The position numbers were made by a program, and so were the translations under genes. A DNA stretch of 64,000 bases from the NCBI GenBank assembly GCA_030674155.1, contig CM060335.1, forward strand, positions 39,539,902-39,603,901, in the 5' to 3' direction. Source of the stretch: Stramonita haemastoma. Its lineage: Eukaryota; Mollusca; Gastropoda; Neogastropoda; Muricidae. Below the pieces are notes generated by a model. That model was not told the origin of the DNA and did not search any database. It worked only from the letters and a program-made list of their open reading frames with translations. Of the stretch, positions 1 to 64,000 are shown piece after piece; positions within the stretch are counted from its first letter, which is position 1; every line of letters begins with the position of its first letter.

Positions 1-202
1 TAGTGGTAGAGTGAAGGTCGTGAAAATTTAATTTGAAGTTTTGTACTGTTTTTTGGGATGATTTTTTTTCTTGATTTTTTTAAAAGTCTTTTTTTTAATG
101 TATGTTCATCCCCTGCACAGTTTGTTTTTATTTTTATTATATAAAAATTTATATTCCTGTTTGTGTGATTCCCGGGGTCTTGCCAGAATTTTTTGATGGC
201 AG
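1..202 (+). other. T-rich spacer preceding the A array
   Basis: This AT-rich, T-run-dominated stretch has no gene. It is homologous, in reverse complement, to about 43216-43420 beyond the gap: both carry the TTTTGTACTGTTTT, GTTCATC and GTTTGTGTGATT segments. It is the 5' flank of the A cassette. Confidence 0.7.
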
Positions 203-476
203 GGGACTTTTTTCTCACTGCAAGAACTTTGTCTTTGCTAGGATAACATCACAAGAGTTCTTCATCACTGCAAGAACTTTGTCTTTGCCAGGATAACATC
301 ACAAGACTTCTTCATTACTGCAAGAACTGTGTCTGCGAGGGTGACATCACAAGACTTCTTCATCACTGCAAGAACTTTGTCTTTGCCAGGATGACATCAC
401 AAGACTTCTTCACTGCGGCAAGGACTTTCTCATCCCAACAATGTCTTCATCACCAGGACTTGAAAAGCCCTTCAAG
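203..476 (+). repeat. A minisatellite array (about 50-bp unit)
   Basis: About five imperfect 50-bp units contain CACTGCAAGAACTTTGTC, GCCAGGAT and ACATCACAAGACTTC. The spacing of 50 can be read directly between 241 and 291. The last units degrade into the common GGACTTC core, and the array ends at TTCAAG immediately before GTATGG. Confidence 0.85.
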
Positions 477-600
477 GTATGGTTCTGACACCTTTCCTGT
501 TAGTTCTATGTACAGAGAACTGTAATTGTATTGGATCAGGTACCCCCAGTTGATGAAGTACTCTGATGACTCTGCTCTTGAAGATTTTTAAAATTGGCGC
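471..600 (+). pseudogene. Reverse-transcriptase relic following the A array
   Basis: From 473 the frame reads QGMVLTPFLLVLCTEN, which resembles RT motif B (QGSVLSPLLFxLYxND). At 553-585 another frame reads MKYSDDSALED, which resembles motif C (the FADD box of non-LTR elements). The two are out of frame with each other and no start or longer domain is visible, so this is a decayed fragment. The motif match is seen in translation. The assignment to a LINE-type RT is inference. Confidence 0.55.
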
Positions 601-857
601 TCTGAATACTCTAAACAAGGTGAAGAGATTTCTCGTAATGAAAATGTATGTAGGAAAACTGTGAAAATGAGTAGTAAGAAAGTCAGACTGCATGAAGTTG
701 GGATGCATTCATGTTATCCTCTGCAGGGTTTTGTAGTGATGTGTTTTTTCTTGATGTCATTTTATGCATTTCTTTTTAATTGCCTTGCTCATAAGCTGTT
801 CCAATCATCTTTTTTGAGATAATGATGCATTCTTGTTTTTTTTGTGTGTGTGGACAG
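601..857 (+). other. Spacer with a diverged M80 relative and a pyrimidine-CAG boundary
   Basis: CAGACTGCATGAAGTTGGGATGC near 690 is a diverged form of the M80 module found before D arrays. It is followed by TTTTATGCATTTC, TTGCCTTGCTCATAAGCTG and a T/GT-rich run ending in CAG at 855-857, which abuts the next array. This upstream block recurs before nearly every D and E array. Confidence 0.6.
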
Positions 858-1374
858 AATCTCATCACTGCAAGAACTTTCAGCAACACCAGAACTGCAG
901 TCTTCATCACCAGAATTGCAGTCTTCATCACCAGAATTGCAGTCTTCATCACCAGAATTGCAGTCTTTATCACCAGAATTGCAGTCTTTATCACCAGAAT
1001 TGCAGTCTACATCACCAGAATTGAAGTCTACATCACCAGAATTGCAGTCTACATCACCAGAATTGCAGTCTTCATCACCAGAATTGCAGTCTACATCACC
1101 AGAATTGCAGTCTTCATCATCAGAACTGCAGTCTTCATCATCCCTGGGACTTCAGTCTTCATCATCACCAGGACTTCAGTCTTCATCATCACCAGGACTT
1201 CAGTCTTCATCATCACCAGGACTTCAGTCTTCATCATCACCAGGACTTCAGTCTTCATCATCACCAGGATTTCAGTCTTCAGTGTTTTATGCAGCACTCA
1301 TGGTTCTGTTGTAAAACCAGCTCCACAGTTGCTGATCTACATACTTCTTCAACGCAAAATGCTCCGGTCTTAAT
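858..1374 (+). repeat. E1 array: 21-bp units changing to 24-bp units
   Basis: After a conserved AATCTCATCACTGCAAGAAC leader come about a dozen 21-bp CAGTCTTCATCACCAGAATTG units. From about 1140 come five 24-bp GGACTTCAGTCTTCATCATC units. All three forward frames stay open because both periods are multiples of three and lack stops (peptides ELQSSSP, then GLQSSSSP). The array ends in the E1 tail (CAGTGTTTTATGCAGCACTC ... GTTGCTGATCTACAT), not in an RT-like segment. Non-coding origin is the simplest reading. Confidence 0.85.
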
Positions 1375-1627
1375 GATTGAACTTCATTTTGAGTGGATAT
1401 CTTGTTGTATATGTTTTTTATAAGCCTGCTGTTTGGTACAGGACAATAATAATGTATGGAGTTTAGATAGTGCTGAATCTCATAAAGCTATAAATAGAAG
1501 CACTTACATTCAAATAGATTTTCATCACTTTGAAGTTTTGTTTTGCTTAGTGTGTTTTGAATGAGTGTTTATTTAGGTGACATGAATATTGGATGTCAGA
1601 AAATGAAAATAGAAGAAAAAGTGGGAA
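1375..1627 (+). other. Spacer leading into P1
   Basis: It contains TTTGGTACAGGACAATAATAATG...TAGTGCTGAATCT, a block repeated before every P1. The P1 leader follows (GAGTGTTTATTTAGGTGACA ... GGATGTCAGAAAATGAAA), which is paralogous to the leader of P2. No gene is seen. Confidence 0.65.
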
Positions 1628-2275
1628 AAACACTAATAAGGGGAAAAGAAAAGGTGGTTGGAGGCCCCAGAAAAAAGAAATTAAAAAAAAAATGTGAGGA
1701 AAAGAAAAGGTGGTTGGAGGCCCCATAAAAAAAGGAAAAAAAATGATATGGGGAAAAGAAAAGGTGGTTGGAGGCCCCAGAAAAAAGAAATTAAAAAAAA
1801 AATGTGAGGAAAAGAAAAGGTGGTTGGAGGCCCCAGAAAAAAAGAAAAAAAAGAATGTGGGGAAAAGAAAAGGTGGTTGGGGGCCCCAGAAAAAAAAAAG
1901 ATAAATAATGTGGGGAAAAGAAAAGGTGGTTGGGGGCCCCAGAAAAAAAGAATAAAAAAATAATGTGGGGAAAAGAAAAGGTGGTTGGGTCCCCAGAAAA
2001 AAAAAATGTGGGGAAAAGAAAAGTTGGTTGGAGGCCCCAGAAAAAAAAAAAAGTGGGAAAAGAAAAGGTGGTTGGGGGCCCCAGAAAAAAAGAGAAAAAT
2101 GTGGGGAAAAGAAAAGGTGGTTGGAGGTCCCAGAAAAAAAGAAACAAAATGTGGGAAGAAGAAAATTAAAAAAAAATGGGGAAAAGAAAAGGTGGTTGGA
2201 GGCCCCAGAAAAAAGAAAATAATGTGGGGAAAAGAAAAGGTGGTTGGAGGCCCCACCAAAAATATAAAAAAGAAA
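1628..2275 (+). repeat. P1 purine-rich array, copy 1
   Basis: About 13 units of roughly 45-60 bp each carry GGGGAAAAGAAAAGGTGGTT followed by GGAGGCCCCAGAAAA. Length varies in the A-runs. The plus strand is strongly purine-biased. Several frames on both strands are stop-free, giving spurious K-rich (plus) and F/P-rich (minus) translations. GGTGGTTGGAGG is a candidate two-tetrad quadruplex. Confidence 0.9.
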
Positions 2276-2453
2276 AGAAAAAAAAAGAAGTACAATTGAG
2301 TGTGTATGTGTGTGTATGGAAGTCACCATCATTACATTTTATTTCAAAATCTTAGATAAGGATTTAAATAATAAAATCTGTTCAAATGTCCATTGAAAAA
2401 AACACAACATGGTCTTGATATAGCAGTATTCTGTGTGTTTCTGGCTCATAATG

Positions 2454-2968
2454 TGTGTATTGATGTATCCCTGATAGATGTTACATCCACTGGAGATTTA
2501 AAAGATATACAAGTGGAGTAAATAATGTGTGTATTGATGTATCCCTGATAGATGTTACATCCAGTGGGAGATTTAGAAGATATACAAGTGGAGTAAATAA
2601 TGTGTGTGTTGATGTATCCCTGATAGATGTTACATCCACTGGGAGATTTAGAAGATATACAAGTGAAGTAAATAATGTGTGTGTTGATGTATCCCTGATA
2701 GATGTTACATCCACTGGGAGATTTAAAAGATATACAAGTGGAGTAAATAATGTGTGTGTTAATGTATCCCTGATAGATGTTACATCCAGTGGGAGATTTA
2801 GAAGATATACAAGTGGAGTAAATAATGTGTGTATTGATGTATCCCTGATAGATGTTACATCCAATGAGAGATTTAGAAGATATACAAGTGGAGTAAATAA
2901 TGTGTGTATTGATGTATCCCTGATAGATTTTACATCTAGTGGGAGATTTAGAAGATACACAAGTTGAG
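2454..2968 (+). repeat. S75 satellite, copy 1 (7 units)
   Basis: Seven 75-bp units begin at about 2454, 2527, 2602, 2677, 2752, 2827 and 2902. Each has GTATTGATGTATCCCTGATA, GATGTTACATCCA and AGATATACAAGTGGAGTAAA. 75 bp equals 25 codons, so frames on both strands stay open. Substitutions fall at replacement positions as readily as silent ones, so coding is not favoured. Confidence 0.92.
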
Positions 2969-3559
2969 TAAATGGATAAAATATGCACAAATGTGATGAA
3001 TTGCAGAAAATGTGAATATAAATATTGTAACGTGTAAAATGTGTTGTGAGTAGCAGATGTTTGTCTTTGTGTGCATGTAATGCATTTCTGTTTTTGTTTT
3101 TGTTTTATTTTGTTTCATTTTTACTAAGGAAGGGGGTAGATAATGATTTTTTTCATACCATCAACTTGTTTAAAAAAATTATTGTAGTTTAAAACAACCC
3201 TTGTTTTTGATAGCCTGGACTGGATATTTGTGATTTGTGATGCAGCGCCAAAGTTTTAGTATTTGTATGATTTTGTTATGTAACTTTAAAATTACCATTA
3301 CTTTTATGTATGATGTTTTTAGTGGAAAAGCAGTGACCTAAGTAGCAGGTGCTTTATTAGGCATTTTGATCAGAGTGAATTTTTGTGTTTTGTATTTTTA
3401 TTTTGACTCCTGTTACTTGGTACATCACTTTGTTTGATAGTGTTTTTTCTTATTCCTTTTTAAATGAGTGTGTATGTAGGTGACAGAAATTTGGATGTGA
3501 GAAACTGAAACTAGAAAGAAAAGTAGGAAAAGAGGAGATTGGACAACCCACCAAAAAAA
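2969..3559 (+). other. Conserved inter-array spacer S75 to P2
   Basis: Unique-looking within a unit but present in every composite unit. Landmarks are GAGGAAGGGGGTAGATAATG-like at 3120, CCTGGACTGGATATTTGTGA at 3215, GCAGCGCCAAAGTTTTAGTA at 3243, then the P2 leader (GAGTGTGTATGTAGGTGACA at 3464). No gene, RNA or promoter is recognised. Confidence 0.65.
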
Positions 3560-3860
3560 AAAATTGAATGGGGAAAAGAAAAGGTGGTTGGAGGCCCTAC
3601 ACATAAAACGAGAAAAAAAATCCAAATCAAACAAAAAACTAAAACAAAACAAAAAAAAAGGGGAAAGAAAAGGTGGTTGGAGGCCCCACACATAAAAAGA
3701 AAAGAACAAAAAAATTCAAATCAAAACAAAAAACTAAAACAAAACAAAAAAAGGGGGAAAGAAAAGGTGGTTGGAGGCCCCACACATAAAAAGCAAAAAG
3801 CTAATTAAAAAAAATATATTAAGAAAAGAAAAAATAGGAGGTTGAAGTCCCCACAAAAAA
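3560..3860 (+). repeat. P2 purine-rich array, copy 1
   Basis: Three units of about 92 bp carry the GGTGGTTGGAGGCCC core of P1 but are followed by ACACATAAAAAG. A degenerate fourth core follows (GGAGGTTGAAGTCCCCAC). It shares its leader with P1, so P1 and P2 are paralogous cassettes. Confidence 0.85.
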
Positions 3861-4073
3861 GTGTCTGATTCAGTGTGTTTCAGTTGCCATTGTACATTTT
3901 TGTTATTGAGTTTGAAATTCATATTTCAGATCAGAAGTATGGTCACTTGTCCATTGAAAAAAAAATCAGGGTCTTGCAATGGCTGTGCAGTTGACGTTTC
4001 TGGCTAAGAATCTGTGTATTGATCTATTACTGACAGATTTTCCGTCAGCTGAGAAGTTCAGGTCTTTATTGCT

Positions 4074-5053
4074 GTGAGGACTTATTTGCTGCAAGGATTT
4101 CTTCATCATCACAAGGACTCATTCAACACTGTAGCCTTGTTAATTGCTGCAAGGACTTGTTTATTGCCACAAGGACTTCTTCATCTCTGTAAGGATTTCT
4201 TCATCGCCACAAGGTTTTCTTTATTGCTGAAAGGACTTCTCCATTGCCACAAGGACTTTTTCATCACTGCAAGGACTTCTCCATTGCCACAAGGACTTCT
4301 TCATCGCTGAAAGGACTTCTCCATTGCCACAAGGACTTGTTTCATCACTGCAAGGACTTCTCCTTTGCCACAAGGACTTCTTCATTGCTGAAAGGACTTC
4401 TCCATTGCCACAAGGACTTTTCATCACTGCAAGGACTTCTCCATTGCCACAAGGACTTCTTCATCACTGAAAGGACTTCTCCATTGCCACAAGGACTTCT
4501 TCATCACTGAAAGGACTTCTCCATTGCCACAAGGACTTTTTCATCACTGCAAGGACTCGTCCATCGCTACAAGGACTTTTTCATCACTGCAAGGACTTCT
4601 CCATTGCCACAAGGACTTCTCCATCGCTACAAGGACTTTTTCATCACTGCAAGGACTTCTCCATTGCCACAAGGACTTCTTCATCACTGCAAGGACTTCT
4701 CCATTGCCACAAGGACGTCTTCATCACTGCAAGGACTTCTCCATTGCCACAAGGATGTCTTCATCATCACACAGACTTCTTCCTCACCACAAGGATTTCT
4801 TCATCATCACAATAGACTTCCTCATTGCCACAAAGATGTCTCCATTGCTACAGACTTCTTCATTGCTGAAAGGCTTCTTCATTGCTGAAAGGACTTTTTC
4901 ATTGCTGAAAGGACATCTTCATTGCAAGGGCTTCATCATTACAAACACTTTTTTTATTGCTTCAAGAATCTCGTCTCTGCAAGGACTTTTTCATTTCTAC
5001 ACAGACTTCTGTATTGCCAGTACTTAAATCCACGTTCCTTGGTTCCCTTCAAG
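4074..5053 (+). repeat. C array (20-bp unit), copy 1
   Basis: Some 45 units of about 20 bp alternate CATTGCCACAAGGACTTCT and CATCACTGCAAGGACTTCT or related forms. Because 20 is not a multiple of 3 and the units lack stops, all frames are open and give the same 20-residue cycle. It is preceded by a single-copy relative of the S75 unit (TGTGTATTGATCTATTACTG at 4011) and followed directly by the RT-like segment. Confidence 0.9.
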
Positions 5054-5172
5054 GTATGGTTCTGTCACTTATGCTCTTCATTCTTTATATACATACATGA
5101 TTTAATTGTATTGGATTTGGTACCACCCTGTTGATTAAGTGCTCTGATGACACTGATGTTGAGGATATATGA
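5041..5172 (+). pseudogene. Reverse-transcriptase relic following C, copy 1 (best preserved)
   Basis: From 5047 one frame reads LQGMVLSLMLFILYIH, which matches RT motif B of non-LTR elements (QGSVLSPLLFILYIND). A stop follows at 5098-5100. In the same frame TTLLIKCSDDTDVED follows at 5122-5166, which matches motif C (FADD). The spacing between the LS-(P) position and DD is about 26 codons, as expected for the palm domain. Upstream palm motifs are replaced by the C minisatellite. The frame closes at 5170. The RT identification is inference from these two motifs and their spacing. It is a relic, not a working enzyme. Confidence 0.65.
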
Positions 5173-5289
5173 AACTGAAGCTGTGTCACTGTGTGTATTG
5201 TAAAAAAGTTGAGAAGTTCTCTATGAATAGAAAAGTTATTTTTTCCCTGTTTTTCAGCTACAGCTCTGAGGTTTACCAGTGGTGAGATT

Positions 5290-5635
5290 TTTGCAAATGC
5301 AACTGTTTTTTTCCCCCCACCACTAAGGTAGAAGCATTTTGACTTTGGGGATACTGTTGGAGATTGAACCTGCCACTTTTGCCAGGACAGTCAGGAGGAA
5401 CCTCCCTGTTCTTCCATATTTCCAGCTGTCATGGATTCTTTTGATGTGCACAAGACCGTAAGAACACTGGTCTGACTGGTTTAGAGTCTTTAGAAAGACT
5501 TGGTATTTATTTTTTATTTGAATGTCAAACCAAGAAGCAAGGGCAAAGCTTAGAATTGAACCCAGAACCTCACGGTTTGCTTGTTAGGCAGGTGGACATC
5601 TGAACCATTCTGCCACCATCCCTCTTAAATGTTCT
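5290..5635 (-). mobile_element. SINEa, tRNA-derived, copy 1
   Basis: On the minus strand the head (near 5625) reads GGTGGCAGAATGGTTCAGA, an A-box-like sequence. GAGGTTCTGGGTTCAATTCT, B-box-like, follows about 40 bp later, and then a body through AGACCAGTGTTCTTACGGTC. Copies at 44833 and 60358 lie at the equivalent place, between C and D'. Boundaries are approximate. Confidence 0.6.
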
Positions 5636-5840
5636 GACTAAAATTTTGCAGAATGTAACTCAAAGGTAGTCTGCATGAAGTCGTGATGCATTAATGGTAT
5701 ACTGTGTTCTGTGATGATTTGATTCTTTTTGGATTTGTAAAAAAAACCCCATGATTTCTTTACAGAATTTTATCTTGCTCATGAGCTAGCCCAGTTTCTC
5801 TTTTGAGATAATACTCTCTTCCTTTTTGTGTCTTCAAGAG

Positions 5841-6012
5841 AAATTCGTCATCACAAGAACTTCACCATCACCCAAATTTGATCATGCCCAGGACTTCAGT
5901 TTTCCTTGCCAGGACTTCAGTCTTCATCATCACCAAGACTTGAACATCACCAGAATGGGCACTCTTCAACATCAGCAGGTCTTGAAAAGTGGACTTTAAT
6001 TGCTCCCTGCAA
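5841..6012 (+). repeat. D' short array, copy 1
   Basis: Only about six irregular units of the GGACTTC core are present (AGAACTTCACCATCACC, CCAGGACTTCAGT and so on). They lie between a TTTTTGTGTCTTCAAGAG boundary and CTGCAAG before GTATGG. It looks like an unexpanded version of the D or E arrays and may be nearest the ancestral state. Confidence 0.6.
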
Positions 6013-6115
6013 GGTATGGTTCTACCATCTACCATCTTCATTTTTAATGCAGTTGAAACAGTACTGGATCTGATACCGCACTGAAGTACATGGATGACAC
6101 TGCTCTTGGAGGTTA
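6000..6115 (+). pseudogene. Reverse-transcriptase relic following D', copy 1
   Basis: CSLQGMVLP begins near 6002, and KYMDDTALGG is encoded at 6084-6113. The YMDD form of motif C is textbook for reverse transcriptases. The two motifs are separated by a decayed stretch with stops. Confidence 0.55.
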
Positions 6116-6214
6116 ACAAAATCAATGTTGTGTATATTCTGAAGAAGTTAAACTTTCTATATATAGAAATGTAGAGAGAAGTGTCCCGTATAGATAGAAA
6201 TGTACTGAATAAAA

Positions 6215-6376
6215 TTGTATAAATATGTAGGGAGATAGTAGACTGTATGAAGTCAGGATATATTAATGTTAATACTGTACAGTGTTCTGTGATGATTTAT
6301 TTCTATGTAGGGAGATAGTAGACTGCATGAAGTCAGGATATATTAATGTTAATACTGTACAATGTTCTGTGACGAT
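6215..6376 (+). repeat. M80 module, 2 tandem copies
   Basis: Two 80-bp units (TATGTAGGGAGATAGTAGAC ... ACTGTACAATGTTCTGTGAT) lie directly upstream of the D cassette. Copy number at this site varies between composite units (1 to about 4). Confidence 0.8.
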
Positions 6377-6490
6377 TTAGTTCTATTTCTTCGTGATGCC
6401 ATTTTATTCATCTTTTTAAATTGCCTTGCTTAAAAGCTGCTCCTGTTTTCTTTTTGGAGATAATGATGTATTCTTGTTTTTTGTGTGCAG

Positions 6491-6867
6491 AATCTCATCA
6501 TCACAAGAATTTTATCATCTCTAGGACTTCAGTCATCATCATTGCCTGAACTACATCATCCTCTGGACTTCATCAACACCAGGACTTCATCAACACTTCA
6601 TCAACACCAGGACTTCATCAACACCAGGACTTCATCAACACCAGGACTTCATCAACACCATGAACACCAGGACTTCATCAACACCAGGACTTCATCATCA
6701 CCAGACTTCATCAACACCAGGACTTCTTCAACACCAGGACTTCTTCATCACCAGGACTTTATCAACACCAGGACTTTATCAACACCAGGACTTTATCAAC
6801 ACCAGGACTTCATCAACACTTCATCAACACCAGGACTTCAGAAGTCAACTTTACTTGTTCCCTTCAA
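6491..6867 (+). repeat. D array (17-bp unit), copy 1
   Basis: It starts after TTTTTTGTGTGCAG with an AATCTCATCATCACAAG leader and a less regular segment (TAGGACTTCAGTCATCATCA ... CTACATCATCCTCTGG). About 15 units of AGGACTTCATCAACACC follow. The 17-bp period makes each frame cycle through the same 17-residue peptide (TPGLHQHQDFINTRTSS). Confidence 0.9.
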
Positions 6868-6985
6868 GGCATGGTTCTGTCACCCATTGTATTCAGTTTT
6901 TATGCAAACGTTAAGTCTGTATTGGATCTACTGGCACTGTGTGCTAAGGTTGTGTGATGATACTGCTCTGGGAAATTTACAGTAT
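6840..6985 (+). pseudogene. Reverse-transcriptase relic following D, copy 1
   Basis: From 6862 the frame reads LQGMVLSPIVFSFYAN (motif B). Shifted by one base, 6947-6982 reads RLCDDTALGNLQ (motif C). A single frameshift separates them. Confidence 0.6.
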
Positions 6986-7299
6986 GTATATTCTTAAGTT
7001 GGGGTTTTGGGGGTGGTGGTGTTAAAATGTAGAGATTAAAATTGTAAAAATTATGTCGCCAGATAGTGGATAGAGTGAAGGTCATGATTGATTAGTCAAG
7101 TTTTGTACTGTTTTCTGGGATGATTTCTTTCTTGATATTTTAAAACTGTTTTTTTTTTAAATAGTATGTTCATCACCTACACAGATTTGTCTTTTTTCTT
7201 GATGTCATTTTATGCATACCTTTTTAATTGCCTCACTGATAAGCTGCTCCAATTGTCTCTTTTGAAATAATAATATATTCTTATTTGCTTATTTGACAG
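6986..7299 (+). other. Spacer D to E2
   Basis: A G/GT-rich run (GGGGTTTTGGGGGTGGTGG) is followed by AGATAGTGGATAGAGTGAAG and TTTTGTACTGTTTTCTGGGA. A pyrimidine-rich run ends in GACAG at 7295-7299. The block is the same as that found before the A array at position 1, so A and E cassettes share an upstream region. Confidence 0.65.
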
Positions 7300-7843
7300 A
7301 ATCTCATCATTGCAAGAACTTTCATCATCACCAGCACTTCAGTCTTCATCATCACCAGGACTTCAGTCTTCTTCATCACCAGGACTTCAGTCTTCTTCAT
7401 CACCAGGACTTCAGTCTTCTTCATCACCAGGACTTCAGTCTTCATCATCACCAGACTTCATCATCACCAGGACTTCATCATCACCAGGACTTCAGTCTTC
7501 ATCATCACCAGGACTTCAGTCTTCATCATCACCAGGACTTCAGTCTTCATCATCACCAGGACTTCAGTCTTCATCATCACCAGGACTTCGGTCTTCATCA
7601 TCACCAGGACTTCAGTCTTCATCATCACCAGGACTTCAGTCTTCATCATCACCAGGACTTCAGTCTTCATCATCACCAGGACTTCAGTCTTCATCATCAC
7701 CAGGACTTCATCATCACCAGGACTTCAGTCTTCATCATCACCAGGACTTCAGTCTTCATCATCGCCAGAACTTCTTGACCTCCATGTCTTTTGTCTTTGT
7801 TGATGCTGGAACTTCAAAAGTCAACTTGCTGTTTACTTGCAAG
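7300..7843 (+). repeat. E2 array (24-bp unit), copy 1
   Basis: About 18 units of 24 bp (CAGGACTTCAGTCTTCATCA TCAC) include a few truncated ones. The E2 tail follows (TTCTTGACCTCCATGTC, GTTGATGCTGGAACTTC, TTTACTTGCAAG). All three plus frames are open (QDFSLHHH, GLQSSSSP, TSVFIITR), as is one minus frame (MMKTEVLV). Confidence 0.9.
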
Positions 7844-7890
7844 GTATAGTTCAGTCACATGATATTGTCTTCATTCTTTATACATGCAAA
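7832..7890 (+). pseudogene. RT motif-B-like relic following E2, copy 1
   Basis: One frame across the array end reads LQGIVQSHDIVFILYTC, a decayed counterpart of LQGMVLSPILFIFYAN after D arrays. No motif C is found downstream. A G-homopolymer lies at 7920-7931. Confidence 0.4.
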
Positions 7891-8075
7891 ATGTCACCAT
7901 TCTTTAAGATCAGTGGGGAGGGGGGGGGGGGTACAAGGAAAGGGCAGGTAATTTCAGCAGTGGCCTGAGTGATGTGGGACAGGTGCACTGAGGAGGTAAA
8001 GGAGGAACAGGAAGGTGAGGGGAAGAGAGAAAAGGGAGAGAATTGTGTGGAATTTATTTATTTATCTATGTATTA

Positions 8076-8440
8076 TTTATTTATTCTTTTATATCGAGGA
8101 TAATGGAATAAGCACTCGTGTGCTTTTTTTTTTTTTTTTACATCCGGTCCCCGTGTGTATGCATTTTTGTAAATCTTGTCATCTGTTCCCACCGGCACAC
8201 AGTACACAGTAACCTACTCTTATGAAAAGCAGAACAGGATTTAACATGTGCAAGATGTTCTGTGTGCGTTCGCACACTGGCTTGGTTTATAGTCTCATCC
8301 GAAGGACTTTTGGGGAGAGGGGAGTCAGCACTGATGTTAACTCCAGGGGAAAAATCCCCTTAAACAGGAATCAAACCTGGGTTGTAATTGAGAGTGCAAT
8401 GTTTTGACCATTAGGCTATCTCGACTCCTAGATGAGAGAA
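8076..8440 (-). mobile_element. SINEb, tRNA-derived, copy 1
   Basis: The minus-strand head reads GATAGCCTAATGGTCAAAAC (A-box-like) and CAGGTTTGATTCCTG (B-box-like). The body contains CCCCAAAAGTCCTTCGGATG and AGACTATAAACCAAG, and a T-run/AAAT tail lies at its far end near 8050-8140. AGTCC-TTCGGATGAGAC bodies are common in molluscan SINEs (general knowledge). Confidence 0.7.
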
Positions 8441-8574
8441 GCTACAGATTTGATTTCATAGTTGCATGATGGAAAAACTCAAAATCTGATCCCCCCCCCA
8501 ATGTAAGATAACACATCTTTGATTTTTGAAAATATTTTTAGATAATAATGTATTTATGCTCTTATTGTCCTCAG

Positions 8575-8945
8575 GACTTATCACTAGGACTTCAAAACTT
8601 CACCATTGTCAGGACTTCATTTTTGCTGAGACTTCAACACCCGAAATGTCGCCAAGACATCATCACCAAGACTTCATCATCACCAAGACTTCATCATCAC
8701 CATCATCACCAAGACTTCATCATCACCAAGACTTCTTCCTCACCAAGACTTCATCATCACCAAGACTTTATCATCACCATCATCACCAAGACTTCATCAT
8801 CACCAAGACTTTATCATCACCATCATCACCAAGACTTCATCATCACCAAGACTTCATCATCACCAAGACTTCATCATCACCAAGACTTCATCATCAAGAC
8901 TTTGTCATTATTAAGAGTTCATTAACTCAAAAACTTAATCATAGA
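8575..8945 (+). repeat. F array (17-bp unit), copy 1
   Basis: After ATTGTCCTCAG at 8574, early units are irregular and are followed by about 14 regular AAGACTTCATCATCACC units with CATCATCACC interruptions. The sequence drifts toward AAGAGTTCATTAACTCAAAA at the end. Confidence 0.88.
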
Positions 8946-9250
8946 TGAGACTTCATTACCACCAAAAGATCCCCACAGGACTTTTATTATCATCACCAGA
9001 ATATACTTCATCAGTGCGTGGACTTCATTATCACCAAGACTTTTTATCATCATTAGAATATACTCATCAGTGCCTGGACTTCATTATCACCAAGACTTTT
9101 TATCATCACCAGAATATTCCCCATCAGTGCCTGGACTTCATTATCACCAAGACTTTTTATCATCACCAGAATATACCCCATCAGTGCCTGGACTTCATTA
9201 TCACCAAGACTTTTTTTTCATCAGCAAAACTTCATCATCACCAAGATTTC
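8946..9250 (+). repeat. G array (57-bp unit), copy 1
   Basis: About four to five units contain TATCACCAAGACTTTTTATC, ATCACCAGAATAT and CCATCAGTGCCTGGACTTC. 57 bp equals 19 codons. The unit itself is built from GACTTC-core pieces. Confidence 0.85.
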
Positions 9251-9440: not shown

Positions 9441-9489
9441 AACATGAGGACTTCATCCCTGAGACTTCATCATCATCAAAATATCTCCA

Positions 9490-53740: not shown

Positions 53741-53742
<2 letters not shown>

Positions 53743-54367: not shown

Positions 54368-54428
<61 letters not shown>
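54368..54428 (-). repeat. (CA)n microsatellite
   Basis: About 30 pure CA dinucleotides. Confidence 0.95.
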
Positions 54429-54431
<3 letters not shown>

Positions 54432-54799
54432 GAACACCTCTTTCCCTCATTTGCATATACCTGAATAAATATCCTACCCCTTTCTCCTAATTATTCACTT
54501 TTCTCAAAATTTCACCCCTCCCAATACCTCTTTATTGGTTTCATGAGTCTGGACAGAGAAGTGACCATTGTGTCCACGTATCATTGCATCCATCTGCCAG
54601 TGTGTTTACATGCAGGGTAGGGGTCAGGGTAAGTGTAAACAGTGTCAGGTTAGGGTTAAGGTTAGTAGTTAGGACTGGGCCTGTCATTTTGAATGTATGC
54701 ATGAATAAATGCAGGTGGACACAACAGCATGTGGACACTATGGTATTTAGTTTTTTTTCTTTTAATCACAAATTGCTCTTCCTGTCAAAAGCAGAGCGT
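54429..54799 (-). other. Conserved spacer
   Basis: Inverted 11836-12206 block. AGGTTAGGGTTAAGGTTAG is the telomere-like part. No gene. Confidence 0.6.
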
Positions 54800-54990
54800 A
54801 GTTCTAAGACTTTTTTTACCCCAATGCCAAAACAGGTTCCAAGGCTTTTTGCTTTTTACGCAATGCCAAAAACCGGTTCCAAGGCTTTTTGCTTTTTACG
54901 CAATGCCAAAAACCGGTTCCAAGGATTTTTGCATTTTACCCCAATGCCAAAAACAGGCCATCGCCAAAAAAAGGTTCCAAGACTGATTTT
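54800..54990 (-). repeat. I41 array, copy 4 (about 4 units)
   Basis: CCAATGCCAAAAACAGG and GGTTCCAAGGCTTTTTGC units with small deletions. Confidence 0.8.
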
Positions 54991-55089
54991 TTTTAATCTA
55001 TCAAGAAAGGAAACAGATTAAGTTTTAAAAAATTGTGCAAATGTGCATCCTAAGCCCTTCTCCCAAGTAACCCTTTACCTCAAACTGAA

Positions 55090-55170
55090 CACACAATCGG
55101 TGGATGGGATAACCTGCTGACTTGGGTTCGAATCTCATTCAAGAGGCTTTTTCCTCTGTAGTTAACATTA
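55090..55170 (+). mobile_element. SINEb-related element (variant head), copy 4, truncated
   Basis: Head ATGGGATAACCTGCTGACTT and GGGTTCGAATCTC intact. It stops at GTAGTTAACATTAATG and the flank resumes at the equivalent of about 11045, so most of the body is lost. Confidence 0.6.
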
Positions 55171-55919
55171 ATGAACATTACTGAAAATTATGTAGTACTC
55201 ATTACTGTAAACTTAACTCTTATGCATGCATGCATGCACACACACACACATCTATATAGTTCTGGTCTCTTTCTGTGAACCTTGCGTTGCAATCAAATCT
55301 GCAACATTGGTATATTAGGTTTACTTATAGTACAAACTATATCAGATCCTGTTTTTATTCAGGATCATCTATAAACCAGAAGGTTCTTCCCCAAATATAT
55401 CTTTGCTGATCTGATAAGCTTGGGAAACTGGAGAAAAAACAGCATACATACACTAATCCATGTGCTGTGCTGGCCTTGGTGGCTGATCGACCAACATTAC
55501 CTAGGGCGTACCAATGATAAAATAGATATAAAAATAAACCATGTAAACAACAAAAAAACAAACAATTCTAAAAAGTCATTTCATGTGCATGTGTGTGGAC
55601 CCACAAACATTTCTTACATACTTAAACTTTTGCAACTCTTTCTTGTACATCATTTTTCCCATTTCATCCTCCATAAACCCTCAGATTTCATCAAATTTGT
55701 TTCAGTTGCAGCTTTGTTACAGCTACTGACAGATAAAATCTATTAAGAGCAGATGATTAAGTCCACACATTTACCAGCAAAACAATTATTATCAAATTTA
55801 CTCAAATCAAATACCATTTTGAGACCAGCCTATATTTTCAAAGGGCATTTGATCTATGATCTTGACAAAAAAATCAAGATACGAAAGATACACATAGGCA
55901 AACATTCCAAATTTTCTTC
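55171..55919 (-). other. Spacer
   Basis: Inverted counterpart of 10120-11050 (for example ACCTAGGGCGTACCAATGAT at 55498). The 107-bp duplication of unit 1 is single here. No gene. Confidence 0.55.
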
Positions 55920-56285
55920 CTCTGAGGTATCCAACTTTGTTTCGGGAGGCCACGGGGAGAGGGGAGGGGGGAGTGGGGGGGACGTTTCAGTCTTTTTTTG
56001 TTTGTTTTTGGAAGGGGGTTGTTTTTCTTTTTGAGAGACCTCCCACATTTTTTTCCATGTATTTTTTTGCCGTTTTGGGGTGAGGAAAAAAAAAAGGGGG
56101 GGGGGGGGGGGGGTATTTTTTGTTCTTTTCTTCTTGTGGCAAAAATGAAGAAGGGGCAAAGGTAAAGTACTGATTTTGAAGTCCTTTGTGATGATAAAGG
56201 CCAGAAATGACACTGAGGTATATATATTACAGTGATGTTGAAAGTCCTGTGGAGATATTTTGGTGATGATGAAGTCTCAGTGATT
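55920..56285 (-). other. G-rich block and single 52-bp unit
   Basis: G-runs (56096-56113) on the plus strand are the inverted C-rich block. One copy of the 52-bp unit at about 56185-56235. No gene. Confidence 0.55.
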
Positions 56286-57005
56286 AAGTCTTTGAGTTAA
56301 CAAACTCTTTAATAATGCTGAAGTCTTGATGATGAAGTCTTGGTGATGATGAAGTCTTGGTGATGATGAAGTCCTGGTGATGATGAATTCCTGGTGAAGA
56401 TGAAGTCTTGGTGATGATGAAGTCTTGGTGATGATGGTGTTGATGAAGTCTTGATGATGAAGTCTTGGTGATGATGAAGTCTTGGTGATGATGAAATCTT
56501 GATGATGATGGTGATGATGGTGATGATGAAGTCTTGGTGATGATGAAATGTTGATGAAGACGTCTTGGTGATGAAGACATCTTGGTGATGATGAAGTCTT
56601 GGTGATAATGGGGATGATGAAGTCTTGGTGAAGATGAAATGTTGATGAAGACGTCTTGGTGATGAAGACATCTTGGTGATGATGAAGTCTTGGTGATAAT
56701 GGGGATGATGAAGTCTTGGTGAAGATGAAGTCTTGGTGATGATGAAGTCTTGGTGATAATGGAGATGAAGAAGTCTTGGTGGTGGTGGCGATGATGAAGT
56801 CTTGGTGATGATGAAGTCTTGGTGATGATAACGTCTTGGTGATGATGAAGTCTTGGTGATGATGAAGTCTTGGTGATGATGAAGTCTTGGTGACGAAGTC
56901 TTGGTGATGATGAAGTCTTGGCAACATTTCTGGTGTTGAAGTCTCAGTGGAAATGAAGTCCTGGCAATGGTGAAGTTTTGAAGTCCTAGTGACAAGTCCT
57001 GAGGA
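56286..57005 (-). repeat. F array (17-bp unit), copy 4, with G and H missing
   Basis: About 40 units. A sub-block with GATGAAATGTTGATGAAGAC and GTGATAATGGGGATGATG recurs (56540-56610 and 56635-56710). G and H arrays, present next to F in all left-hand units, are absent. Confidence 0.9.
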
Positions 57006-57244
57006 CAAAAAGAGCATAAATACATTATTATGTAAAATATTTTTAAAAACCAAAAATGTATTATCTTGTAACTATCATCACATGGAAAGAAAAAAAGATT
57101 CATCTCATAAAAAATCTTCTCAGTTTTGTTTGCTTTTTTATATTTTGTTGGGGTTTTTTTTTCTTTTAGGGGGAGGGGGGAGGGGAGATCAGATTGTCAG
57201 TTTTTCCATTGTGCAACTATGAAATCACATCTGTAGCTTCCTCT

Positions 57245-57612
57245 CATCTAGGGGATGGGATAGCCTAGTGGTCAGAACATTGCTCTCGCAATTTGATGAC
57301 CTGTGTTCGATTTCTGTTTAAGGAGATTTTTTCCCTGGAGTTAACATCAGTGCTGAATCCACTCTCCCCAAAAGTCCTTCAGATGAGACTATAAACAGAG
57401 GCCTCGTGTGCAAACACACGCAGAATATCTTGCACACATTAACTCCTGTTCCGCTTTTCGTAAGAGTAGGCCACTGTGTGCTGGTGGGATCAGATGACAA
57501 GATTTCCAAAACTGCATACACATGAGGACTGGATGTAAAAAAGCACACAAGTGCTTATTCCATTATCCTGGATATAAAAGAATAAATAAATAAATAGATA
57601 AATAAATAAATT
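57245..57612 (+). mobile_element. SINEb, tRNA-derived, copy 4 (most complete)
   Basis: GGGATAGCCTAGTGGTCAGA (A-box-like) at 57256 and CCTGTGTTCGATTTCTG (B-box-like) near 57301. The body has CCCCAAAAGTCCTTCAGATG and ends in an AATAAATAAATAAATAGATA tail to about 57612. Confidence 0.75.
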
Positions 57613-57738
57613 CCACACCATTCTCTCCCTTTTCTCTCTTCCCCTCACCTTCCTGTCCCTCCTTTACCCCCTCAGTGCACCTGTCCCACATCACTCAGTC
57701 CACTGCTGAAATTACCTGCCCTTTCCTTGACCAACCAC

Positions 57739-57761
57739 GCCCCCCCCCCCCCCCCCCCCCA
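57739..57761. repeat. C homopolymer
   Basis: Inverted counterpart of the G-runs at 7920, 16593 and 37809, always at the same place after E2. Confidence 0.9.
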
Positions 57762-57779
57762 AACTGATGTTCAAGAATG

Positions 57780-57842
57780 GTAACATTTTGCAAGTATAAA
57801 GAAAGAAGACAATATCATGTGACTGAACCATACCTTGCAAGT
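57780..57842 (-). pseudogene. RT motif-B-like relic following E2, copy 4
   Basis: The minus strand reads LQGMVQSHDIVFFLYTC directly after the array. Confidence 0.4.
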
Positions 57843-58557
57843 AAACAGCAAGTTGACTTTTGAAGTTCCAGCATCAACAAAGACCAAAGACATGGAGGTC
57901 AAGAAGTGCTGGTGATGATGAAGACAGAAGTGCTGGTGATGATGAAGACTGAAGTGCTGGTGATGATGAAGACTGAAGTGCTGGTTATGATGAAGACTGA
58001 AGTCCTGGTGATGATGAAGACTGAAGTCCTGGTGATGATGAAGACTGAAGTGCTGGTCATGATGAAGACTGAAGTCCTGGTGATGATGAAGACTGAAGTC
58101 CTGGTGATGATGAAGACTGAAGTCCTGGTGATGATGAAGACTGAAGTTCTGGTGATGATGAAGACAGAAGTTCTGGTGATGATGAAGACTGAAGTTCTGG
58201 TGATGATGAAGACTGAAGCCCTGGTGATGATGAAGACTGAAGCCCTGGTGATGATGAAGACTGAAGTGCTGGTGATGATGAAGACTGAAGTCCTGGTGAT
58301 GATGAAGACTGAAGTCCTGGTGATGATGAAGTCCTGGTGATGATGAAGTCCTGGTGATGATGAAGACTGAAGTCCTGGTGATGATACAAGAAGACTGAAG
58401 TTCTGGTGATGATGAGGACTGAAGTGCTGGTGATGATGAAGACTGAAGTGCTGGTGATGATGAAGACTGAAGTGCTGGTGATGATGAAGACTGAAGTCCT
58501 GGTGATGATGAAGACTGAAGTTCTGGTGATGATGAAAGTTCTTGCAATGACGAGATT
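57834..58557 (-). repeat. E2 array (24-bp unit), copy 4
   Basis: About 26 units with GAAGTGCTGG, GAAGTCCTGG, GAAGTTCTGG and GAAGCCCTGG sub-families in runs, plus an inserted ATACAAGAAGACTG unit at 58384. Confidence 0.92.
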
Positions 58558-58859
58558 CTGTCAAATAAGCAAATAAGAATATATTATTATTTCAAAAGAG
58601 ACAAATGGAGCAGCTTATGAGTGAGGCAATCAAAAAGAAATGCACAAAATGACATCAAGAAAAAAAAATAATCTGTGTAGGTGATGGACATACTGTTAAA
58701 AAAAAAAGACTTTTAAAATATCAAGGAAAAAATCATCCCAGAAAACAGCACAAAACTTCACTAATCAATCATGACCTTCACTCTATCCATTATATGGCTA
58801 AAAATTTTACAATTTAATCTCTACATTTTTAACACCACCACCCCCAAAACCCCCAACTT
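58558..58859 (-). other. Spacer between D and E2
   Basis: Inverted counterpart of 6986-7299. No gene. Confidence 0.6.
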
Positions 58860-58990
58860 TAGAATATACATACTGTAAATTTCCCAGAGCAGTATCATCA
58901 CAGAATTTTAGCAACAGTTTATAACACCAATACACCTTAACTTGCATTAAAAATGAATACAATGGTGACAATAACCATACCTGAAGGATC
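58860..58990 (-). pseudogene. Reverse-transcriptase relic following D, copy 8
   Basis: KFCDDTALGN is intact on the minus strand. The motif B part has lost several bases (ACCATACCTGAAGGATC). Confidence 0.5.
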
Positions 58991-59493
58991 ACAAGGTAAG
59001 TTGACTTCATGAATTCTGGTGTTATGAAGTCTGGTGTATGATAAGTCCTGTATGATGAACTTGTTTGAGAAGTGATGATGAAGTCTGGTGTTGATGAAGT
59101 CCTGTGTTGAAGGATGAAGTAGTTGATTGATGAAGTCCTGGTTGATGAAGTCTGGTTGATGTGATGAGTGATGAGAAGTCCTGGTGTTGATGAAGCCTGG
59201 TGTGATGAAGTCCTGGTGTTGATGAAGTTTGATGAAGTCCTGGTGTTGATGAAGTGTTGATGAAGTCCTGGTGTTGATGAATGTTATGATCCTGGTGTTG
59301 ATGAAGTCTGCTGGTGTTGAAGTCCTGTGTGATTGAAGTCCTGGTGTTGATGAAGTCCTGGTGTTGATGAAGTCCTGGTATGAGCTGGTGTTGATGAAGT
59401 CCTGGTGATGATGAAGTCCAGAGGATGATGTAGTTCAGGCAATGATGATGACTGAAGTCCAAGAGATGATAAAAGTTCTTGTGATGATGAGAT
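58985..59493 (-). repeat. D array (17-bp unit), copy 8, indel-rich
   Basis: Units are riddled with one- and two-base losses (GATGAAGTCTGGTGTATG, AAGTCCTGTATGATG) that are absent from other D arrays. The right-hand end (59400-59493) is normal. Confidence 0.8.
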
Positions 59494-59597
59494 TCTGCGC
59501 ACAAAAAAACAAATAAGAATACATCATTATCTCCAAAAAGAAAACAGGAGCAGCTTTTAAGCAAGGCAATTTAAAAAGATGAATAAAATGGCATCAC

Positions 59598-59768
59598 GAA
59601 GAAATAGAAATAAATCGTCACAGAACATTGTACAGTATTAACATTAATATTTCCTGACTTCATGCAGTCTATCACCCTACATAGAAATAAATCATCACAG
59701 AACACTGTACAGTATTAACATTAATATTTCCTGACTTTATGCAGTCTACTATCTCCCTACATATTTAT
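59598..59768 (-). repeat. M80 module, 2 inverted copies
   Basis: Two units, the first with CTATCACCCTACATAG. Confidence 0.8.
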
Positions 59769-59867
59769 ACAATTTTATTCAGTACATTTCTATCTATACA
59801 GGACACTTTTCTTTACATTTCTATATATAGAAAGTTCAGTTTCTTCAAAATATACACACATCAATTT

Positions 59868-59985
59868 TATTAACCTCCAAGAGCAGTGTCATCAAAGTAC
59901 TTCAGTGTGGTATCAGATCCAGTACACTTTAAACTGTATTAAAAGTGAAGATGGTAGAACCATACCTTGCAGGGAGCAATTCAAG
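59868..59985 (-). pseudogene. Reverse-transcriptase relic following D', copy 3
   Basis: The minus strand reads CSLQGMVLP, then KYFDDTALGG. Confidence 0.55.
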
Positions 59986-60145
59986 TCCACTTTTCAAGAC
60001 CTGCTGATGTTGAAGAGTGCCCATTCTGGTGATGTTCAAGTCTTGGTGATGATGAAGACTGAAGTCCTGGCAAGGAAAACTGGAGTCCTGGGGATGATCA
60101 AATTTGGGCGATGGTGAAGTTCTGGTGATGATGAATTTCTGTTAA
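59972..60145 (-). repeat. D' short array, copy 3
   Basis: Almost identical to 5841-6012 in reverse. Confidence 0.65.
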
Positions 60146-60357
60146 AGACACAGAAAGGAACAGAGTATTATCTCTAAAGAGAAACTGGACTAGCTCATGA
60201 GCAAGATAAAGTTCTGTAAAGAAATCAGGGTTTTTTTTACAACTCCAAAAAGAATCAAATCTTCACAGAACACAGTATACCATTAATGCATCACGACTTC
60301 ATGCAGACTACCTTTGAGTTACATTCTGCAAAATTTTAGTCAGAACATTTAAGAGGG

Positions 60358-60680
60358 ATGGTGGCAGAATGGTTCAGATGTCCACCTGCCTAACAAGCAA
60401 ACCATGAGGTTCTGGGTTCAATTCTAAATATAAACCTTGCCCTTGCTTCTCAGTTTGACACTCAAATAAAAGATATATACCAAGTATTTCTAAAGACTCT
60501 AAACCAGTCAGACCAGTGTTCTTATGGTCTTGTGTACATCAAAAGAATCCATGTCAGGTGAAAATCTGGAAGAACAGGGAGGTTCCTCCTGACTGTCCTG
60601 GCAAAAGTGGCAGGTTCAATATCCAAAAGTATCCCCAAAGTCAAAATGCTTCTACCTTAGTGGTGGGGGGAAAAAAACAG
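60358..60680 (+). mobile_element. SINEa, tRNA-derived, copy 3
   Basis: GGTGGCAGAATGGTTCAGAT and GAGGTTCTGGGTTCAATTCT, then a body with CAGTCAGACCAGTGTTCTTA and AGGTTCCTCCTGACTGTCCT. Confidence 0.65.
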
Positions 60681-60797
60681 TTGTATTTGCAAAAATCTCA
60701 CCACTGGTAAACCTCAGAGCTGTAGCTGAAGAACAGGGAAAAAATAACTTTTCTATTCATAGAGAACTCCTCAACTTTTTTACAATACACACAGTGA

Positions 60798-60945
60798 CAC
60801 AGCTTCAGTTTCATATATCCTCAACATCAGTGTCATCAGGGCACTTAATCAACAGGGTGGTATCAAATCCAATCCAATTAAATCATGTATATATATAAAG
60901 AATGAAGAGCACAAGTGACAGAACCATACCTTGAAGGGAACCAAT
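60798..60945 (-). pseudogene. Reverse-transcriptase relic following C, copy 8 (both motifs in frame)
   Basis: Minus strand: LQGMVLSLVLFILYIYT, one stop, then TTLLIKCPDDTDVEDI in the same frame, reproducing the arrangement at 5047-5169. Finding the same in-frame pair in two distant copies argues against a chance match. Confidence 0.65.
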
Positions 60946-62085
60946 GAACATGGACTTAAGTCCTGGCAATCCAGAAGTCTGTGCAGAAATGAAAAAGTCC
61001 TTGCAGAGACGAGATTCTTGAAGCCATAAAAAAGTGTTTGTAATAATGAAGCGCTTGAAATGAAGACGTCCTTGCAGTGATGAAGACGTCTTTGTGGTTA
61101 CGAAGAAGTCCTTTCAGCAATGAAGAAATCCTTGTGGCAATGAAGAAGTCCTTGTGGTAATGAAGAAGTTCTTGCGGCAATGAAGAAGTCCTTGCGGGAC
61201 CCAGCAGAAGTGAAGGGCCCCTCTGGCTGGTGGCCCAACTGCGCCTAATATTGATGGGCTCCCTGGTACTCCCGACCCCGGGGATGAGACACAACGTATC
61301 AGGGTATTGCTGTGGTGGGGAGATTGGAATGAGTGGTGTGGGAGCTACATGACAGGGATGTCACAGAAGACAAGGCAGCTAAAAAATAAAAAAAAAGAGT
61401 CCTTGTGGCGATGAAGAAGCCCTTGTGGCGATGAAGAAGCCCTTGTGACAATGAAGAAGTCCTTTCAGCAATGAAGAAGTCCTTTCAGCAATGAAGAAGT
61501 CCTTGAGGTGATGAAGAAATCCTTTCAGCAATGAAGAAGTCCTTGTGGCGATGAAGAAGTCCTTGTGGCGATGAAGAAGTCCTGGCAGTGATGAAGATGT
61601 CCTTTCAGCAGTGAAGAAGTCCTTTTAGCAATGAAGAAGTCCTTTCAGCAATGAAGAAGTCCTTGTGACAATGAAGAAATCCTTGAGGCGATGAAGAAGT
61701 CCTTGCGGCGATGAAGAAATCCTTGCAGTGATGAAGAAGTCCTTGCAGTGATGAAGAAGTCCTTGCAGTGATGAGGAAGTCCTTGCGGCAATGAGGAAGT
61801 CCTTGCGGCGATGAAGAAATCCTTGCAGTGATAAAAAAGTCCTTGCAGTGATGAAGAAGTCCTTGCAGTGATGAAGAAGTCCTTGCAGTGATGAAAAAGT
61901 CCTTGCAGAGATTAAGTCCGTGCAGAGATTAAGTGGTCCTTGTAGCAATGAAGAAGTCCTTGCAGAGATGAAACTCTCTTGCAGTGAGAAAGAAGTCTTT
62001 GCAGCAATTAACAAGGCTACAGTGTTGAATGAGTCCTTGTGATGATGAAGAAATCCTTGCAGCAAATAAGTCCTCACAAAAATAA
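60940..62085 (-). repeat. C array (20-bp unit), copy 8
   Basis: About 45 units, interrupted at 61198-61397. CTTTCAGCAATGAAGAAGTC and CTTGTGGCGATGAAGAAGTC runs are interspersed. Confidence 0.9.
61198..61397 (+). mobile_element. 200-bp poly(A)-tailed insertion inside the C array
   Basis: GC-rich sequence (GACCCAGCAGAAGTGAAGGG ... CCCGACCCCGGGGATGAGAC) unlike anything nearby. It ends in AAAAAATAAAAAAAAA and is followed by a resumed C unit. The repeated AGTCCTTG on both sides fits a target duplication but cannot be told apart from the array itself. It is probably a SINE or other retrocopy, source unknown. Confidence 0.65.
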
Positions 62086-62294
62086 AGACCTAAGTTTCTC
62101 AGCTGACGTAAAATCTGTCAGTAATAGATCAATACACAGATTCCTAGCCAGAAATGTAAACTATACAGCCACCACAAGACCATGATCTTTTTCAGTGGAC
62201 AAGTGACCATACTTATGATCTGAAATATGAATTTAAAACTCAATACAAAATGAACAATAGCAACTGAAACACTGTGAATTACGCACTTTTTTGT

Positions 62295-62685
62295 GAGGCC
62301 TCCAACCTCCTATTTTTTCCCATATTTTCTTTCTCTTTTTTTTTCTTTTTTATTAAAAAAAAATTCATGAGTGTGGCCTCTAACCACCTTTTCTTTTCCC
62401 CATTTTTTTGTTTTGTTTTTGTTTTGTTTTGTTTTCTTTCTCTTCTTTTTATGTGTGGGGCCTCCAACCACCTTTTCTTTTCCCCATTTTTTTTGTTTGT
62501 TTTGTTTTGTTTTTTTTCTCTTCTTTTTTTGTGTGGGGCACCAACCCACCTTTTCTTTTCCCCATTTTTTTGTTTTGTTTTGGGGGTTTTTTGTTTCTTT
62601 TTTTTTCTCTTCTTTTTATGTGTGGGGCCTCCAACCACCTTTTCTTTTCCCCATTCAGTTTTTTTTTTTTGGTGGGTTGTCCAAT
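62295..62685 (-). repeat. P2 purine-rich array, copy 8
   Basis: Three good inverted units of about 90 bp with GTTTTGTTTTGTTTT filler, plus two variants (GGGGCACCAACCCACC and GTGGCCTCTAACCACC). Confidence 0.85.
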
Positions 62686-63245
62686 CTCCTCTTTTCCTAC
62701 TTTCCTTTCTAGTTTCAGTTTCTCACATTCAAATTTCTGTCACCTACATACACAGTCCTTCAAAAAGGAATCAGAAAAACTATCAAACAAAGTGATGTAC
62801 CAAGTAACAGGAGTCAAAATAAAAATACAAAACACAAAAATTCACTCTGATCAAAATGCCTAATAAACCACCTGCTACCTAGGTCACTGCTTTTCCACTA
62901 AAAACATCATTCATAAAAGTGATGGTAATTTTAAAGTTACATTACAAAATACAAATACTTAAACTTTGGCGCTGCATCACAAATCACAAATATCTAGTCC
63001 AGGCTATCAAAAACAAGGGTTGTTTTAAACTACAATCTTTTTTTTAAACAAGTTGATGGTATGAAAAAAATCATTATCTACCCCCTTCCTTAGTAAAAAT
63101 GGAACAAAATAAAACAAAAACAAAAACAGAAATGCATTACATGCACACAAAGACAAACATCTGCTACTCACAACACATTTTGCACGTTACAATATTTATA
63201 TTCACATCATTTTCTGCAATTCATCACATATGTGCATATTTTATC
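62686..63245 (-). other. Inverted P2 leader and conserved spacer
   Basis: Inverted 2969-3559. No gene. Confidence 0.6.
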
Positions 63246-63249
63246 CATT

Positions 63250-63700
63250 TACGCCACTTGTGTATCTTCTAAATCTCCCAGTGGATGTAACATCTATCAG
63301 GGATACATCAATACATACATTATTTACTCCACTTGTATATCTTCTAAATCTCCCAGTGGATGTAACATCTATCAGGGATACATCAATACACACATTATTT
63401 ACTCCACTTGTATATCTTCTTAATCTCCCACTGGATGTAACATCTATCAGGGATACATCAATACACACATTATTTACTCCACTTGTATATCTTCTAAATC
63501 TCCCACTGGATGTAACATCTGTCAGGGATACATCAATACACACATTATTTACTCCACTTGTATATCTTCTAAATCTCCCAGTGGATGTAACATCTGTCAG
63601 GGATACATCAATACACACATTATTTACTCCACTTGTATATCTTCTAAATCTCCCAGTGGATGTAACATCTGTCAGGGATACATCAATACACACATTATCA
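63250..63700 (-). repeat. S75 satellite, copy 8 (6 units)
   Basis: Six inverted, well-preserved units. CTGTCAGGGATACATC marks three adjacent ones. Confidence 0.92.
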
Positions 63701-63859
63701 GCCAGCAACACAGAGAATACTGCTATATCAAGATCATGTTGTTTTTTTCAATGGACATTTGAACAGACTTCATGATTTAAGCCGTTATCTAAGACTTTGA
63801 AATAAAACATTATAATGGCGACTTCCACACACACACTCAAATGTACTCCTTTTTTTTTT

Positions 63860-64000
63860 CTTTTTTTTGGGTGGGGCCTCCAACCACCTTTTCTTTTCCC
63901 CACATTTTTTCTCTTTCTCTGGGGCCCCCAACCACCTTTTCTTTTCCCCAAGTTTTCTTTTTTTTCTGGGGCCTCCAACCACCTTTTCTCTTCCCCCCAT
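63860..64000 (-). repeat. P1 purine-rich array, copy 8 (cut by window end)
   Basis: Three inverted units up to the window edge. Confidence 0.88.

Follow-up and report, generated by a model that had tools for sequence, protein, structure and literature searches.

Minisatellite-bearing, partly retrotransposon-like cassettes in a probable noncoding higher-order repeat cluster of the gastropod Stramonita haemastoma

A 64,000-base stretch of the genome of the muricid gastropod Stramonita haemastoma (assembly GCA_030674155.1, contig CM060335.1; C20:39539902-39603901), termed the window here, contains an ordered cluster of repeats in which minisatellite arrays lie at a fixed place within short cassettes, and cassettes of several types are joined into composite units. 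The cluster is probably a noncoding higher-order repeat of decayed, partly retrotransposon-like cassettes with minisatellites that has grown by slippage and tandem duplication. The genome searched comprises 2,166,303,198 bases in 9373 contigs and holds paralogous cassette clusters on other chromosomes, with segments from the contigs C14, C27, C3, and C4 used for comparison. In agreement with a mollusc, hemocyanin beta-sandwich domains lie at 17 places in this genome, compared to 0 of 14 control genomes, and their best match among solved structures is the molluscan entry 8trz, named Hemocyanin. Coordinates beyond the window are given in the window frame.

A preliminary description of the window proposed four nested levels: short units sharing (A/G)GACTTC, arrays with private periods, cassettes, and composite units arranged in tandem and then inverted. 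The two lower levels are borne out. The motif RGACTTC has 461 matches in the window, compared to a shuffle mean of 19.1 (standard deviation, 3.8; 0 of 100 shuffles as high). Tandem Repeats Finder recovers the arrays A and C to H with periods of 50 (A), 20/40 (C), 17 (D), 21/24 (E), 17 (F), 57 (G), and 34 (H) bases, resting on the 228 rows listed. The arrays P (about 50 bases), S75, T52, U105, V41, and W27 were missing from the earlier list.

At the third level, the block map shows a constant order of pyrimidine-CAG boundary, array, reverse transcriptase (RT)-like segment, and M80 block. Sequence between the arrays is also alike across cassette types: in a comparison of seven intervals, the pieces that align do so at about 66 to 88%. 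This homology, together with the recurrence in fixed order, confirms the cassette as a unit. Composite units follow the order P, S75, C, a small s cassette, M80, boundary, D, RT-like segment, boundary, E, and RT-like segment; long units continue with F, G, H, T52, U105, and V41, and some units are without single blocks. Steps of 10.9, 9.2, 5.5, and 5.2 kb separate the starts of the five successive P arrays (Table 1), and unit-to-unit alignments of more than 2 kb at about 62 to 85% identity appear in the self-comparison. The tandem arrangement of units of 5 to 11 kb therefore stands, based on the P steps and the block map, while the proposed inversion does not, with orientation flipping only at gaps of 100 N. 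Diverged subunits in a fixed order are thus repeated as a block, as is typical of a higher-order repeat, and in a tree of 24 segments, like subunits from different units are closer to one another than unlike subunits within a unit.

This tree of 24 RT-like segments from the window consists of five groups corresponding to the types A, C, s, D, and E, without any grouping by unit. It includes segments from the assembly piece to the right of the gap at 42380, having been drawn before the contig overlap described below was known, and the D segment at 58884-59008 of the last inverted unit is absent from it. The clustering of cassettes from the same unit, which the preliminary description had set against its own history of cassette types followed by units, is not seen, and the tree supports the proposed order. 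The grouping by type indicates that the cassette types are older than the units. A larger tree of 62 segments from five chromosomes (C20, C14, C27, C3, and C4) requires 10 changes for its 8 labels, compared to a shuffled mean of 40.7. Here, 9 of 11 D segments from other chromosomes join 12 of the 13 D segments of C20 (support of 94, with the tool's star set at 95), and both A segments of C27 join those of C20 (support of 88). A single branch sets apart each of the types s, C, E, and A of C20, and also D, with two stray long-branch rows; a second C4 row and one weak D row of C20 are placed elsewhere. No segments of types s or E are found among those fetched from other chromosomes. The grouping of D and A across chromosomes indicates that these two types are older than the spread of the cassettes; the tree shows no such sharing for type C.

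The period of the array is tied to the type of the segment that follows it. For this comparison, a set of 59 segments was used in which 6 duplicate C20 segments of 42480-54250 are omitted and their copies further right, in the piece beginning at 95416, are retained. On C20, the best period just upstream of the segment is 17 bases in 12 of 13 D segments, 20 in 7/7 C segments, and 24 in 6/6 E segments, and all 4 A segments are without a clear upstream period. C14 shows a period of 17 in 5/5 D segments and 20 in 3/3 C segments. The two strong D segments of C27 have a period of 17, the two weak ones have a period of 20, and its two A segments have periods of 28 and 20. The single D segment of C3 has a period of 17, and C4 contains one D segment without a clear period and two C segments with periods of 20 and 24. 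The 17-base consensus of the D arrays on C20, C14, and C27 is identical up to rotation and strand, apart from one C14 array differing by one letter. Among the 14 nonduplicate s segments, 8 are preceded by their own weak 17-base array and 6 by a 20-base C array. The junctions of these six fused cassettes are nearly identical, as expected of a single array-to-array deletion that was amplified later.

The description of the cassette segments as RT-like is supported only at the level of motifs, which were chosen after the sequence had been read. A QGxVLSP-like motif occurs in 24/59 segments, compared to 6 of 40,000 shuffles of D segments, and a DDT-like motif occurs in 35/59, compared to 106 of 40,000. 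Both motifs with proper spacing are contained in 19/59 segments and in none of the 40,000 shuffles. One RT-like segment on C27 has an open RVT_1 frame (G000:C27:22484685-22485434) about 25 bases away on its own strand, perhaps an insertion beside the cassette.

Several results weigh against the interpretation as a noncoding cluster of RT-derived cassettes with types older than their spread. In the larger tree, a separate group apart from the C segments of C20 is made up of the C-like segments from C14, one from C4, and the two weak C27 rows. The joint motif occurs in 0/14 s, 0/6 E, and 0/7 C segments on C20 and in none of the A segments of C27. Pfam reports 0 families for two short pieces of one D cassette, leaving the RVT_1 profile unmatched, and a search of the PDB with one C-type piece from C14 gives no match. 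Stop-creating changes are depleted in two of five array sets, with 14 observed versus 53.6 expected in C20b and 24 versus 35.2 in D. Finally, 17/170 of the array-adjacent columns in the RT-like segments are variable, compared to 208/724 further away (circular shifts as low in 1/5000), which could mean constraint.

The last two points would favor an alternative in which the arrays are exons, each preceded by an intron and an acceptor (pyrimidine tract and CAG) and followed by a donor (CAAG/GTA), forming a long spliced repeat RNA or a repeat-protein gene. This alternative is unlikely, even though the CAAG/G site is followed by GT in 48/59 segments and by GC in 11/59, with nothing else found, and though the plus-strand frames of the array intervals contain only 0 to 2 stops each, except for one 1661-base interval covering more than one cassette. 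Only D cassettes carry the GC form (11/13 on C20 and the one D of C4). Array interval lengths vary modulo 3, so that no frame length is kept. Stop-creating changes are not depleted in the other three of the five array sets, with observed/expected values of 67/67.0 in F, 18/18.3 in E, and 52/56.8 in C20a, where C20a and C20b represent the same kind of array by two consensus forms that overlap. The proportion of variable columns on C20 is 0.10 next to the array and climbs gradually to 0.35 at 121 to 160 bases, over some 60 bases and more instead of in a sharp donor step, and the low values at the array end are biased by the anchors at that end through which the segments were located. Present in the pooled set, this gradient away from the array's 3' end is, by type, clear in D, E, and C, weak in s, and absent in A; two weak D rows (119249 and 120264) are excluded from the variability and acceptor analyses. 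For the acceptor side, the group labeled A is mixed and the pattern meant for D matched E and A cassettes as well, and only the 3' side is used. The gradient is read here as a probable sign of exchange centered on the arrays, with constraint as the alternative. A coding function of the arrays was judged unlikely from the interval lengths, the stop-creating changes, and the S75 satellite, whose 81 monomers with 223 substitutions are without a clear excess of synonymous changes in any frame. Pfam matches of two S75 translations (HAMP_2, DUF4884, and others) involve short repetitive stretches and are not taken as homology, and Pfam scans of the other five S75 frames give nothing except one subthreshold VIR_N match. 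Similarly improbable is a broader version, in which the cassettes serve as serial exons of long transcripts on several chromosomes, with retention of boundaries resembling splice sites and of a sense strand that is poor in stops and folds weakly, while type-specific arrays remain free in length. When folded as RNA, the D interval at 6488-6870 is matched or surpassed by 100/100 of its shuffles (z = 3.69). There is also little probability that the cassettes belong to the non-autonomous elements of the Helentron type (HINE), in which a tandem array lies at the center. According to passages of the description of the Cg_HINE Helentrons of the oyster Crassostrea gigas, these elements carry flanks around a central tandem array, are interspersed, and prefer TT for insertion (PMC7492417). 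The cassettes resemble them in their succession of left flank, central array, and right flank, with the kind of array tied to the kind of flank, likewise in a mollusc; in contrast to what these passages describe, they are clustered in tandem, and some of them carry an RT-like motif (PMC7492417). The matches listed, which are the best candidates, lie in clusters and are not densely interspersed.

The inversion claimed for the composite units is not supported by the structure of the assembly. Orientation was surveyed in 264 kb around and including the window, with the piece to the left of the gap at 42380 designated L, the piece to its right designated M1, and the piece from 95416 designated R. 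In the block map, labeled blocks are all on the plus strand up to 42379 and all on the minus strand after 42480. Orientation changes only at this gap and at the 100-N gap at 95316-95415, while the 100-N gaps at 66609-66708 and -35929 show no change, and no flip inside contiguous sequence, as a real inverted duplication would have, is found in the 264 kb. Repeat-unit BLAST matches (plus/minus) number 933/0 in L and 461/0 in R, both as fetched, 0/453 in M1, and 0/666 in M2. The start of M1 is the reverse complement of the start of R, and this 11.8-kb sequence (42480-54250 and 95416-107167) is present twice in the assembly. The overlap spans 11,793 columns with 38 mismatches; gaps account for 63 columns and fall into 55 events, none longer than 3 bases. 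Of the mismatches, 19 lie in the first bin of 1000 columns and 4 and 15 in the last two bins, with 0 in the nine bins between.

These features suggest that the apparent inversion at 42380 is most likely an assembly error, a scaffolding artifact caused by an unmerged contig overlap. M1 and R look like one locus read twice, with a wrong relative orientation in the scaffold, and either M1, in the simplest case, or R would be flipped. In both cases, the sequence before M1 would belong to R and not to L, which would make the junction at 42380 false. A real inversion, in which recent duplication or conversion would have preserved the identity of two inverted 11.8-kb arms, is very unlikely. The scaffold does place the pieces in this way, and identical arms are known in real palindromes; however, each arm starts at the first bases of a contig, arm 1 retains only the inner flank, and arm 2 retains only the outer flank. 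Of the 38 mismatches, 34 fall into the end bins, and contig ends are usually the poor part of a contig. The longest other match of at least 95% identity between different pieces is 838 bases, and other matches touching contig ends show about 71 to 94% identity. A match of 1374 bases with 89.7% identity between the ends of L and M1 shows dovetail geometry but only background identity and is not claimed as a join.

Table 1. Positions of arrays, cassettes, composite units, and assembly features in the window
Feature	Position	Strand
Array A, 50 bases; 98-base doublet	215-412	+
RT-like segment, type A	468-578	+
Array E21/E24 after pyrimidine-CAG boundary (816-879)	884-1281	+
P arrays	1640-2254, 12516-13157, 21671-22271, 27209-27938, 32450-32985	
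Composite unit 1, long: P, S75, C, s, D, E, F, G, H, T52, U105, V41	1640-12515	+
S75 array, 75-base satellite	2448-2971, plus other S75 arrays	
Array C (20/40 bases), then its own RT-like segment (5026-5155)	4063-5010	+
Small s cassette with its own RT-like segment	5805-6106	+
D cassette: M80 x2, pyrimidine-CAG, 17-base array, RT-like segment	6224-6971	+
E cassette: M80, pyrimidine-CAG, 24-base array, RT-like segment	7052-7884	+
Arrays F (17), G (57), H (34), T52	8658-9812	+
Composite unit 2, long; C array directly joined to s-type RT-like segment	12516-21670	+
Composite unit 3, short, without F to V41	21671-27208	+
Composite unit 4, short	27209-32449	+
Composite unit 5, long, ends at assembly gap	32450-42379	+
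100-N scaffold gap at supposed inversion point	42380-42479	
Start of M1, reverse complement of the start of R (95416-107167), dovetail overlap	42480-54250	-
Rest of M1 in the window: V41, U105, T52, F, E, D, s, C, S75, P	54251-64000	-

The additional arrays show some features of their own. The P array is built from a 29-base core with GGGG and CCCC at its ends and A-rich spacers of variable length between the cores, and relatives are found on at least 9 chromosome-sized contigs. Among the 72 S75 matches listed, which represent a lower bound, those of at least 88% identity lie only on C20, and weaker matches of about one monomer lie on C14, C4, C3, C2, C21, C22, and C2298. A partial S75 monomer is located upstream of the C arrays in the window. 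W27 is a 27-base array in unit 5 (33865-34187) that recurs at 115661. On C27, the matches listed are on the minus strand in 22445061-22485600 and on the plus strand in 22662985-22703275. Rfam at gathering thresholds reports 0 families in the window.

The probable history of the noncoding cluster can be outlined as a multistep process. The building block would be a cassette that measures about 0.4 to 0.8 kb without its array and is derived at least partly from a decayed RT fragment of a retrotransposon; such an ancestry may apply to all types. A minisatellite would have been seeded by GGACTTC at one fixed site, between the pyrimidine-CAG boundary and the RT-like segment, and different array periods would have become fixed in different cassettes. 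At least types D and A would have been present before the cassettes spread to other chromosomes. On C20, a multicassette block would then have been amplified into the tandem units, with array lengths changing through slippage and unequal exchange, and an array-to-array deletion may have produced the fused C/s cassette, which was itself amplified. The cluster would presumably be without function.

Satellite higher-order repeats consist of diverged subunits in a fixed order that are jointly amplified as a larger unit. The cluster shares this organization, in contrast to which its subunits carry their own minisatellites of different periods. SVA-type composite retroelements contain an internal array with a variable number of tandem repeats, and in the cassettes, too, the tandem array is variable and occupies a fixed position within a composite element. 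This likeness rests on the position of the array and not on a mobile full-length unit, a poly-A end, or a target-site duplication. Long terminal repeats were not seen around the cassettes, though no search aimed at them was made. For the Ogre long terminal repeat retrotransposons of Lathyrus, passages of one study describe satellites grown from internal tandem repeats as well as interlaced complex arrays (PMC7004042). The cassettes resemble these elements in that short tandem arrays occupy one set position within retrotransposon sequence and expand later; the arrays of the window differ from those in these passages in being carried by a short RT-like remnant and in combining several related periods within ordered cassettes (PMC7004042).

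The overlap between M1 and R points to a practical hazard, since an unmerged contig overlap in a repeat cluster, once scaffolded, can mimic a large inversion. For the cluster itself, the period of the minisatellite appears as a largely heritable trait of the flanking cassette, for type D across several chromosomes. This makes the cluster of S. haemastoma a useful case for studying the conversion of retrotransposon relics into ordered satellites.

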